From: Phormidium sp. OSCR
GTDB lineage: Bacteria > Cyanobacteriota > Cyanobacteriia > Cyanobacteriales > Geitlerinemataceae
DNA: 43,695 nt
Direction of reading: 5' to 3'
Assembly (NCBI GenBank): GCA_001314905.1
Contig: LJZT01000031.1
Coordinates: 1-43,695, forward strand
Shown in pieces: positions 41,334 to 43,695 of the stretch. Position 1 is the first letter of the stretch, and each line of letters opens with the position of its first letter. Below the pieces are notes generated by a model. That model made no database searches. It saw only the letters and a list, made by a program, of their open reading frames with translations, and was not told the DNA's origin. A program made the position numbers and the translations under genes.

Positions 41334-41869
41334 AGTCAAGTCCTGGGTGGTTTTATCTTTGTCTGTACGCGATTCTGAACTAGGTCGTTTTCCCTGATGT
41401 CTACAATCTATTCCTAGGCAGAGTAGGAAGCAAGGAACATTGATAGTCTTGTTTAAGTCTTCATCTAAAAATGCCTTTTTTGAAGTTTGTGTAAAGATTG
41501 GTTGGCTCATTTTAGTTTGGAACAGTCAGTCTAGAAAAGCAATATTTCAGTGTAATTACTAATAGTAACTTACGTGTAATTACGCAATTAAGAGTTTTGG
41601 GTCTGCCAGGTTATAGCAAGTTGCCAGGTTTGACGGTTTGTCATACTAAAATACAGTCAGTATGTTTCAGTATTCTTCTTGATATTTTTTTATCATTTGA
41701 TTCTTATTTATAAATATTTTGAATAACGAATAGGGTAGATAGAGGAAATTATTGACAATCGCTGCCACTCTGTCGCCACTCCACAGAGCCAAAATCCCTA
41801 GCTATAGCTCTACGTGTAAACTCTTAAATACGCATAGTATTTTTTAAAAAATACGTGTATATACGTAAA
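41334..41869. promoter_or_regulatory. Repeat-rich, AT-rich upstream region of the PEP-CTERM gene
   Basis: Direct repeats stand out: TGTAATTAC at 41551-41559 and 41575-41583; TGCCAGGTT at 41604-41612 and 41622-41630 (18 bp apart); TACGTGTA at 41571-41578, 41811-41818 and 41852-41859. TACGCAAT, TACGCATA and TACGTAAA occur nearby. CATACT/AGTATG (about 41642-41664) is an inverted repeat. The region is far richer in A and T than the coding DNA. It looks like a large regulatory region, but no known factor site is recognised. Confidence 0.45.
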
Positions 41870-42052
41870 TCAATCCTCCCCAGTCAAGACGAGACCGGGA
41901 AAACCCGCGCCTTGAGAAGCGTTGCGCAAAGGAAGCGATTGTGATCTCGATCTATCTGCAACCCCAGGATCTATCACCCAGACGGTTGGGTAACTGTCAC
42001 GAGTCTTGGGGATAACAATCAACTCAGGACAGGGTTTAGATCGTCGCGCCAT
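41870..42052 (-). CDS. Doubtful small protein (60 aa)
   Basis: A 60-aa frame (MARRSKPCPELIVIPKTRD...) is open on the minus strand just inside the long AT-rich gap, and local base composition returns to the coding norm here. It has no recognisable domain, TM segment or signal peptide, and no good ribosome binding site. A longer frame to 42112 would overlap the next, divergent gene. It may be a small gene, a gene remnant, or chance. Confidence 0.25.
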   Translation of the reverse strand: MARRSKPCPELIVIPKTRDSYPTVWVIDPGVADRSRSQSLPLRNASQGAGFPGLVLTGED

Positions 42053-42097
42053 CTTAGATAGACCCAGATAATAAAGACAGTTGAATTGAGAAGCGCG

Positions 42098-42367
42098 ATG
42101 AATCCCTTGCAATCTATGAATCTATCTGGCTCGGGTCAGCCCTTAGGCCCGAAAGCCTCCTTTGACTTACGAACGCAACTGCAAAGCCTATTGTGGTCTG
42201 TGGAATTGCTGGAATTGCGGTTAGAGCAGGATGTGATGCTACAGATGAACCGAGATGCTTTGTTGCACGAGATCGAACAAGTCCGCAACACCATCGAGGC
42301 GACTTGTAATACCTGCGATCGCCTCAGCTATACCTCCGACACCCTGCTCGGGACTTCGTCTCCATGA
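42098..42367 (+). CDS. Small helical protein resembling a histidine-kinase DHp hairpin, without the His
   Basis: The 89-aa product contains SFDLRTQLQSLLWSVELLEL (21-40) and then, after a turn, ALLHEIEQVRNTIEATCNTCDRLS (about 58-81). The two helices and the first motif resemble the H-box hairpin of sensor kinases (SHELRTPLxxILGxLELL), but the phospho-acceptor position is Phe22. There is no ATPase domain. The ATG at 42098 has no strong ribosome site; a TTG at 42086 is an alternative. A related small protein that keeps the His follows 217 bp downstream. It may be a dimerisation partner or decoy for a kinase. The similarity is judged by eye. Confidence 0.65.
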   Translation: MNPLQSMNLSGSGQPLGPKASFDLRTQLQSLLWSVELLELRLEQDVMLQMNRDALLHEIEQVRNTIEATCNTCDRLSYTSDTLLGTSSP

Positions 42368-42476
42368 GCGATCGCCTCCCATGAGACTCATCTTCAAGGC
42401 CGTTACAGAAATGTCCTTGCCCATGATTTTCTACGGATTTCGATGAGTGATATCAGTATTTACACTGATAAAACGA

Positions 42477-42505
42477 TTGAATTTACCCCATATCTTGCGT
42501 AGAAT
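42477..42505 (+). promoter_or_regulatory. Promoter upstream of the H-box protein and rph
   Basis: TTGAAT (42477-42482) and TAGAAT (42500-42505) are separated by 17 bp, a good sigma-70-type match. Transcription would start near 42512, about 73 nt before the ATG at 42585. An ATCAGT/ACTGAT hairpin (about 42452-42469) followed by AAAA lies just upstream. Confidence 0.6.
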
Positions 42506-42584
42506 CACGAATATTTCGAGCCTCGTTCAACTGAGTTCTCTCGCAGATTTCTCCAATTGACTCCTAAGCGACCCCTACCGACCT

Positions 42585-42812
42585 ATGTTGTACTCTAGTT
42601 TGCCCATCATGACCGAGCCTTCATCGCGTCAACCCCAGTCCGAGTTGCCATTGGAACAGACCCATGAGTTCCGTAACTCCCTAAACACTATCTTCATGTC
42701 CCTCGAACTGCTCAAAGATGACAGCATTGATGACGAGGAACGGCAGAGTTACCTCAACTTCATCCGAGCTGCCGCCGAGCAAATGAAAACAATTCTCGAC
42801 CAGGCCCGGTAA
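42585..42812 (+). CDS. Small orphan H-box (DHp-like) protein with conserved His
   Basis: The 75-aa product reads QTHEFRNSLNTIFMSLELLKDD (core 27-46) followed by a second helix DEERQSYLNFIRAAAEQMKTILDQ. The motif H27-E28-F-R-N-S-L matches the kinase H-box HELRxPL with His and Glu kept. There is no catalytic ATPase domain, so it could be a free-standing phosphotransfer or dimerisation module. A Met at 42609 (MTEPSSRQ) is an equally likely start. It lies 66 bp upstream of rph on the same strand, behind a good promoter, so the two are probably cotranscribed. Function unknown; the DHp similarity is an inference from motif and length. Confidence 0.7.
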   Translation: MLYSSLPIMTEPSSRQPQSELPLEQTHEFRNSLNTIFMSLELLKDDSIDDEERQSYLNFIRAAAEQMKTILDQAR

Positions 42813-42877
42813 ATCGGGGATATCTCAACCCAGATTTCGTGGCATCATACTCCCAGACGATTTTCCTAACTTGACTT

Positions 42878-43618
42878 ATGCCCTGGCAACGTCCCGATGG
42901 TCGCGCCCCGGATCACTTGCGTCCCATTCAATTCGATCTCAACTTCACGGATTTTGCCACCAGTTCCGTTCTGGCTCATTCGGGCAAAACTCAGGTTCTC
43001 TGTACCGTTACCATTGAACCGGGTGTTCCCCGATTTCTCAAAGACAGTGGCCAGGGCTGGCTGACGGCGGAATACCGGATGCTTCCGAGTGCAACGCCGC
43101 AACGCCAACGACGAGAATTGCTGAAACTCTCCGGGCGCACTCAAGAGATTCAACGTTTGATTGGCCGGAGTTTACGAGCTGCGGTGGATCTGACGGCTCT
43201 TGGCGAGCGAACCCTTTTGATTGATGCCGATGTTCTGCAAGCCGACGCGGGAACTCGCACCACGGCCATTACGGGGTCTTGGCTGGCCCTAGCCTTAGCT
43301 CTCGATCGCCTCGTCCAAGCCGGGGAGTTGGAGCGTTCTCCTCTGACTCATGCGATCGCCGCTGTTTCCGTCGGCCTGATTGAAGGACAAGCACTTCTGG
43401 ACCTAAAATATGAGGAGGACGTGGCCGCTGATGTGGATTTGAATGTGGTGATGACCGATCAACTTGAGGCGATCGAGATTCAAGGTACAGCCGAATCCGG
43501 CAGCTTCTCCCGTTCTCAACTGAATGCTTTACTCGATTTAGCTGAGCAAGGAATTAAACAACTCCTCGACGCTCAAAAAGAGGCCCTATCAAGTCAAGGG
43601 TTAGTTAACAGCATCTAA
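42878..43618 (+). CDS. rph: Ribonuclease PH
   Basis: This 246-aa phosphorolytic exonuclease trims the 3' ends of tRNA precursors using inorganic phosphate. The family motifs are complete: [13 protein letters not shown] near the start, [46 protein letters not shown] with the phosphate-binding Thr/Arg, and the acidic metal site [16 protein letters not shown]. The length is normal. The ATG at 42878 is the family start (MPWQRPDGR). It probably shares a transcript with the small H-box protein upstream. The enzyme is a cytoplasmic ring hexamer. Confidence 0.97.
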
Positions 43619-43640
43619 TTTATTTACATTTACTCACAAA

Positions 43641-43661
43641 CACTAACAGCATATGTTAGTG
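43641..43661. promoter_or_regulatory. Operator-like inverted repeat at window end
   Basis: CACTAACA (43641-43648) and TGTTAGTG (43654-43661) are perfect 8-bp arms around 5 bp. They lie immediately upstream of a new ATG at 43669, and GTTAGTA recurs inside its first codons. The arrangement suggests an autoregulated gene. No T-run makes it a terminator for rph. Confidence 0.5.
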
Positions 43662-43668
43662 TGATGAC

Positions 43669-43695
43669 ATGACGTTAGTACCCCTTCGCAAAGCC
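43669..43695 (+). CDS. Start of a truncated reading frame at the window edge
   Basis: ATG at 43669 opens a frame of nine codons (MTLVPLRKA) that runs off the window. It is too short to identify. The palindrome directly before it is typical of small autoregulated genes such as antitoxins or repressors, but this is a guess. Confidence 0.35.

Follow-up and report, generated by a model that had tools for sequence, protein, structure and literature searches.

Gene organisation of the locus

The analysed stretch of DNA, called the window in the following, comprises 43,695 nucleotides of contig LJZT01000031.1 from Phormidium sp. OSCR. It carries two small genes, P1 and P2, which are followed by rph (Table 1). 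The two genes lie on the plus strand at a distance of 217 bases from each other, and 65 bases separate P2 from rph. P1 starts with an ATG, with an in-frame TTG being present upstream at 42086. For both genes the coordinates of the open reading frame (ORF) were confirmed; in P2 an alternative second in-frame ATG would yield a protein of 67 aa. Upstream of the pair we found a gene for a 2-oxoacid-dehydrogenase acyltransferase and, on the opposite strand, an ORF that appears PEP-CTERM-like by eye and has no Pfam match. Scanning ten neighbouring proteins (nine ORFs of the window from 31152 on and one from genome G001) revealed no two-component domain, receiver domains included, such that no partner is indicated nearby. 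One of the ten matches a Ser/Thr-type protein kinase domain.

Table 1. Positions of the genes and the intergenic element within the window.
Feature	Position	Strand	Characteristics and evidence
P1, DHp-like hairpin of 89 aa, Phe22 in place of the His	42098..42367	+	motif F-[DE]-L-R-T, Gln29, Trp33; profile and shuffle tests; dN/dS
Conserved P1-P2 intergenic element	42383..42439	+	two nearly invariant arms, variable-length loop; possible interrupted RNA hairpin
P2, 75-aa DHp-only protein	42585..42812	+	Pfam HisKA match, two-helix model, dN/dS
rph (RNase PH), conserved downstream neighbour in 8 genomes	42878..43618	+	Pfam RNase_PH and RNase_PH_C; synteny; context only

Domain content of P2

P2 matches the HisKA domain of Pfam (PF00512) over residues 26-73 with an E-value of 4.4e-9 and a score of 36.7 bits, which lies above the gathering cut-off of 26.9 bits. 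The H-box reads H-E-F-R, in which His27-Glu28 occupy the H-box position and the phospho-acceptor histidine is present. The AlphaFold model of the P2 monomer is a two-helix hairpin (helices 23-43 and 50-74) with a pLDDT of at least 90 for 47 of the 75 residues. When the P2 profile was compared with PDB sequences, the isolated GacS DHp (7n0e_A) was the top match (E = 1.4e-4), and among the NCBIfam families ChpT matched weakly. No HATPase match was obtained for P1 or P2 in the Pfam and NCBIfam scans, and both ORFs stop after helix 2. DHp denotes the hairpin through which HisKA kinases dimerise and dock. Judged by these matches P2 is a HisKA/DHp domain without anything else, and neither P1 nor P2 can by itself be a kinase.

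Relation of P1 to the DHp domain

In P1 the H-box position is occupied by Phe22-Asp23. Pfam does not recognize the protein: HisKA matched none of the 8 orthologues at E-values up to 1, and no Pfam family scored above its cut-off for the P1 of the window. We therefore turn to family-specific profiles. A DHp HMM was built from 12 stand-alone DHp proteins, all of which match HisKA at E-values up to 0.01 and none of which is a P1. Among the 5296 ORFs of the fetched loci, a set that is enriched in DHp proteins since many loci were fetched using P1 or P2, this HMM found all 8 P1 orthologues with E-values from 9.1e-8 (genome G008) to 9.3e-4 (P1 of the window, the weakest). In the reverse search all 13 non-P1 matches of a P1 HMM were also matched by the DHp HMM, the best of them being a Tyr-bearing protein of genome G007. 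Alignment-to-alignment comparison with hhalign gave E-values of 1.3e-7 for P1 against the 12 stand-alone DHp proteins and 1.3e-5 against the 8 rph-linked P2 alone.

Permuting the columns of the P1 alignment 2000 times gave at most 11.8 bits, and shuffling it 2000 times in blocks of seven columns gave at most 25.5 bits (95th percentile 13.4 bits); no randomised version reached the highest real score, which was 30.1 bits. In the same test the six P1 of the genus of the window scored 16.7-19.1 bits (P1 of the window: 16.7 bits). Since a few block shuffles exceed these values, the case for kinship rests on the family as a whole and mostly on genomes G008 and G009. Detection of all orthologues by a P1-free profile, together with shuffles that stay below the best score, argues that P1 is a diverged DHp in which Phe replaces His. 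The aligned cores read F-[DE]-L-R-T-[QR]-L-Q-[ST]-[LV]-L-W-S for P1 and H-E-F-R-[TSAN]-S-L-N-T-I-[LF]-M-S for P2.

The AlphaFold model of the P1 monomer is a two-helix hairpin as well (helices 18-44 and 46-83), which with a mean pLDDT of 72 is less certain. In structure searches it retrieved kinase DHp entries (4biz, 7n0e and chimeric LOV-kinases), while the P2 model retrieved entries of HK853, KinB, SrrAB and ERS1. In both searches many unrelated helical hairpins were found at similar Z, such that the models were set aside as evidence of kinship. Comparing the P1 profile with PDB sequences provided only a weak kinase match (KdpD, E = 0.3).

The first-pass annotation had described the two proteins as resembling isolated histidine-kinase H-box hairpins, the 75-aa protein with His27 and Glu28, the 89-aa protein with Phe at the His position, both with a second helix and neither with an ATPase domain. 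The residues and the two-helix architecture were found as described. For P2 the hairpin assignment and the HisKA relation, which was to be checked by HMM search, hold in Pfam itself; for P1 they hold by the family-specific profiles and fail by Pfam.

Conservation of the pair and selection

The first-pass annotation took the neighbouring His-bearing and His-less partners for a possible minimal phosphotransfer or kinase-titrating pair, and it proposed a search for the pair near rph in other cyanobacteria. The pair is indeed kept there: P1 was matched in 8 of the 99 genomes searched, among them that of the window, and all 8, which represent three genera of one family, have the gene order P1-P2-rph. 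In the 7 genomes other than that of the window a GNAT-cluster gene comes next after rph, where the contig of the window ends. The closest P1 in named records are those of Phormidium willei BDU 130791 (90%) and Phormidium sp. SL48-SHIP (89%); more distant ones are found in Baaleninema simplex PCC 7105 and Geitlerinema sp. BBD 1991-9. The genus of the window presumably bears the GTDB name Sodalinema.

With the P1 profile, P1 was found in 8 of the 14 family genomes, and two further genomes matched weakly via DHp-only ORFs. The same-genus genome G003 gave no match to P1, P2 or rph; as rph is missing there too, this is explained more simply by a gap in the assembly. In genome G007 rph begins 58 bases into its contig, such that its upstream side lies beyond the readable sequence, and in genome G011, which is 61% complete, the gene ahead of rph resembles adenylate kinase by eye. 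No pair was seen in the approximately 1.5 kb ahead of rph in genomes G010, G012 and G013.

Across the order, with at most 13 candidates scored per genome, the P1 profile matches at least 15 of 388 genomes. The matches listed comprise the 8 orthologues and 8 further ones with E-values of 3.7e-6 or worse. Of the latter, six were examined and bear a DHp (G007, G011, the second locus of G009, G463, G519 and G079); the others belong to G032 and G096. A scan of 386 genomes of the phylum with the DHp profile, again with at most 13 scored each, provided short ORFs only in this family among the matches listed; as long ORFs fill the match list, this falls short of proving that short ORFs are rare elsewhere. 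Checking for a mobile or phage origin, we obtained no match of P1 to plasmids and no relative in viral contigs.

Pairwise dN/dS values within the genus were 0.02-0.15 for P1, 0.08-0.22 for P2 and 0.03-0.12 for rph, as calculated from six genomes (five for rph), with one P1 pair yielding no ratio due to saturated synonymous sites. Most within-genus changes of the three genes sit at third codon positions, and over residues 18-42 the P1 sequences of the six genus members do not differ. P1 and P2 both evolve under purifying selection. Small proteins that lack a catalytic domain and have a strongly diverged relative (L106, see below) might be taken for functionless remnants of a truncated kinase. 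The low dN/dS of 0.02-0.22 in all computable P1 and P2 pairs, the synteny across three genera and the invariant motifs, however, leave hardly any room for such decay.

Exchange of the acceptor residue in a DHp-only lineage

The first-pass annotation had reckoned with a histidine that varies among orthologues as evidence against its reading. At the acceptor site we found His in all 8 rph-linked P2, and Phe in all 8 P1. Seven other DHp-only ORFs of the family carry His in three cases (G007 and G009, both beside a phytoene-desaturase-like gene, and G011), Gln in two (G010 and G012), Tyr in one (G007, at a separate locus) and Pro in one (G008, beside a phytoene-desaturase-like gene). The Pro member, L106, is strongly diverged, has Ser at H+4 and gives no Pfam HisKA match. 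Since little of the conserved regulator-facing surface is left in it, not every member of the lineage retains this surface. Within the rows examined, each of the nine genomes with two or more DHp-only proteins has both His and non-His kinds, which are adjacent in eight and at separate loci in G007 (His and Tyr members). One kind alone is present in G010 and G012 (Gln) and in G011 (His).

For comparison we used 40 kinase rows, i.e. ORFs that were fetched with P2-like queries and classed as kinases by their length (over 300 aa); they were obtained from 46 rows over 300 aa by dropping identical rows and two odd fragments. All 40 have the acceptor His and a proline at H+5, which is absent from all 23 DHp-only rows of the family. 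This proline is linked to helix bending in kinases according to the available part of PMC4211667, and its absence fits a loss of the kinase cycle.

In a tree the 23 DHp-only rows of the family are split from 46 other rows by one branch with a support of 99/95, based on 65 usable columns with several long branches, a bootstrap that had not settled and an alignment steered by a profile to which some of the same proteins had contributed. Two odd fragments, the second piece of L071 and L096 412, were left out. Including both changed the support of the family branch to 99/96, placed the L071 fragment inside it and left P2 without a single group; the grouping of P2 itself is weak (76/47). On the tree, changes between His and non-His occurred at least three times in the family and four times in all. 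Together with the variety of acceptor residues this indicates that the hairpin was kept while the acceptor was repeatedly exchanged. As far as these alignments tell, the pair belongs to a family-specific DHp-only lineage that stands apart from the kinase rows.

This separation bears on the possibility that P1 and/or P2 titrate a kinase by entering the DHp dimer of the full-length protein and poisoning it. Single-domain microproteins are known to poison their parent proteins in this way. The DHp is the dimerisation domain, and the DHp-DHp heterodimer of RetS and GacS blocks autophosphorylation, as the accessible text of PMC12148439 describes. A closely similar kinase DHp was, however, not seen: a P2 query against the own genome at E-values up to 0.001 returned only P2 itself, and when the own genome was searched with a DHp profile that included P2, the runner-up locus scored 72 bits compared to 108 bits. 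Among the fetched rows the kinases nearest to P2 are at most 44% identical and come from other genomes. With the lineage set apart from the kinase rows at 99/95 in addition, we consider titration rather unlikely.

A second possibility is that P2 serves as a DHp-type phosphotransfer protein between receivers, with P1 modulating it. Spo0B and ChpT work in this manner: they are DHp-like dimers which hand on phosphate although they are not kinases. Each of them has a degenerate ATPase-like domain, which is missing from P1 and P2. His27-Glu28 is invariant in the 8 rph-linked P2, and a survey of thermophilic cyanobacteria classes stand-alone HisKA proteins as phosphotransfer proteins in its accessible part (PMC9953108). 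Against this role, His is lacking in four of the seven further DHp-only family rows (Tyr, Gln, Gln, Pro) and in P1, and none of the ten scanned neighbouring proteins gave a receiver-domain match. Given the non-His acceptors, the lineage as a whole cannot have phosphotransfer as its common task. P2 may perform it, but as the main function of P2 it would be improbable. From its residues P1 cannot be a His phosphotransferase, whereas P2 can in principle.

The 84-aa proteins L049 and L050 of another family were considered as lineage members and rejected. They keep the proline and group with the kinase rows, and thus look like a separate truncation. L105:2845-3207 (G463, another family) is a DHp-only ORF with a Gln acceptor, R-T-Q-L as in P1 and a HisKA score of 29.7 bits; it possibly represents an independent His-less DHp-only protein. 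L052:6728-7402 (G023) and L053:2-487 (G090, cut by the contig start) are PAS-HisKA-like proteins without an ATPase domain, and each is adjoined by two ORFs that were named response-regulator-like by eye.

Regulator-facing residues

In EnvZ, with H243 as acceptor (accessible part of PMC5727384), the specificity residues T250, L254 and A255, corresponding to +7, +11 and +12, set the choice of the response regulator, and R251 and M258 (+8 and +15) also coevolve with the regulator (available excerpt of PMC2991266). At the sites +7, +8, +11, +12 and +15 P2 has N-T-M-S-L, invariant in all 8 orthologues. The corresponding residues of P1 are Q, S or T, W, S and L, which are likewise kept in 8 of 8 except for +8. 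Neither Trp at H+11 nor Gln at H+7 occurs in any of the 40 kinase rows. The pattern fits, but does not prove, that two docking surfaces are kept for different partners or modes. As nearly the whole first helix is conserved, conservation of the regulator-facing sites does not stand out.

P1 furthermore keeps an invariant [DE]-x-x-T. At H+4 all 8 P1 as well as the Tyr and Gln members have Thr, while P2 has T, S, A and N in 3, 2, 2 and 1 of 8 cases. This would be in agreement with a division of labour in which P1 acts as a His-less phosphatase and P2 as the acceptor. For CrdS the accessible part of PMC3510030 reports a Thr/Asn as phosphatase residue and much activity retained in H371A: the half-life of the phosphorylated regulator was 2.6 min with H371A, 0.7 min with wild type and 53.5 min alone. 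The DHp of HK853 alone shows phosphatase activity too, which is, however, diminished in H260A (available part of PMC5727384). The H+5 proline is gone from both proteins, and the corresponding CrdS mutant P376A lost much phosphatase activity; moreover, the Pro member L106 carries Ser at H+4. Altogether such a division of labour appears very unlikely.

Proposed role of the pair

That both genes are kept by selection with the DHp part alone suggests a regulatory pair acting on two-component signalling. Among the readings considered we tentatively favour, at somewhat short of even chances, that P1 and P2 are docking or dimerisation modules which would modulate two-component proteins in trans rather than autokinases. 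We infer dimerisation, docking, partner and direction of the effect from the observed domain content, homology, pairing, synteny, selection and residue patterns. Each hairpin would probably form a four-helix bundle, as a homodimer, a P1-P2 heterodimer or a heterodimer with a kinase, and its first helix would present a surface facing the response regulator. P2, in which the acceptor His-Glu is kept, could also accept or donate a phosphoryl group. P1, with Phe at the acceptor position and other residues facing the regulator (Gln at H+7 and Trp at H+11), would only bind: it may tie up a regulator, block it or dephosphorylate it weakly, or it may join a DHp and thereby inactivate that DHp. A more specific version, which we regard as doubtful, has the His-bearing and the His-less hairpin heterodimerise into a two-part non-catalytic regulator that tunes a response regulator or kinase in the manner of microproteins.

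Relation to known systems

With the HisKA domain (PF00512) of histidine kinases P2 shares the above-cut-off match, the H-E-F-R and the two helices. The pair differs from these kinases by lacking an ATPase or sensor domain and the H+5 proline, and P1 in addition by lacking the His and a Pfam match. HisKA-only proteins were counted in thermophilic cyanobacteria, with 0-3 per genome in the accessible table rows of PMC9953108. In the available part of that survey they are only counted, while the proteins described here form a syntenic lineage that includes a His-less paralogue and in which the acceptor changed repeatedly.

DivL of Caulobacter is a His-to-Tyr pseudokinase that works by binding a regulator (accessible part of PMC4211667). 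Like P1 it has a DHp without acceptor His, and in the P1 orthologues the non-His residue is conserved (Phe in 8 of 8); binding of a regulator is established for DivL. According to the same excerpt DivL has retained the proline (Pro555) and contains PAS as well as CA domains, whereas P1 is the hairpin alone.

RetS and GacS provide an example of a heterodimeric four-helix bundle, formed by the isolated GacS DHp and RetS (7N0E; available text of PMC12148439). The GacS chain of this structure ranks first among the PDB sequences matched by the P2 profile; P1 and P2 were modelled here as monomers only. According to that text RetS and GacS are naturally full kinases, and the isolated GacS DHp is a construct.

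Stand-alone HisKA proteins (PMC9953108) and a His-less DHp regulator, DivL (PMC4211667), are thus already known from the accessible parts of these sources. Among the publications listed in searches of the open-licence PMC literature, none dealt with two neighbouring, conserved DHp-only proteins of which one bears and the other lacks the His. As far as this literature was searched, the new element is such a natural pair within a lineage with repeated acceptor exchange. The genome surveys found there count stand-alone HisKA proteins and leave their function unexplained. A His-less member such as P1 escapes Pfam altogether. If the proposed role is true, nature already employs the lone DHp hairpin as a regulator. 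The pair would then offer testable inhibitors or adaptors of two-component signalling of 75-90 aa, and a simple system for what a DHp is capable of without ATPase domain and without histidine.

Intergenic element and further observations

The element between P1 and P2 has a 19-nt core, of which exactly one exact copy is present in each of four same-genus genomes that were searched whole. In all 6 genomes the element could fold into the consensus hairpin, although that of genome G002 lacks one pair. No covariation was found in it, and its folding energy was unremarkable (z from -0.6 to -1.5 for three elements folded alone). The best fold of the element of the window itself departs from the consensus in the outer stem. 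Given the lack of covariation, the ordinary energy and this differing fold, we treat the hairpin as a lead and not as a finding. Rfam provided nothing above the gathering score over 41400-43695, and promoter and terminator scans were near chance.

By eye, three of the DHp-only ORFs of the family adjoin phytoene-desaturase-like and phytoene-synthase-like genes: L045:13066-13353 (G009, His), L046:8017-8253 (G007, His) and L106:3089-3400 (G008, Pro).

Divergently from P1 a small, putatively coding ORF (MARRS...LIVIP...RDSYPTV) is located on the minus strand at 41870-42052. The version in the window has no Pfam match, and that of genome G005 appears by eye to be cut by a stop, while a similar ORF is present in genome G006.
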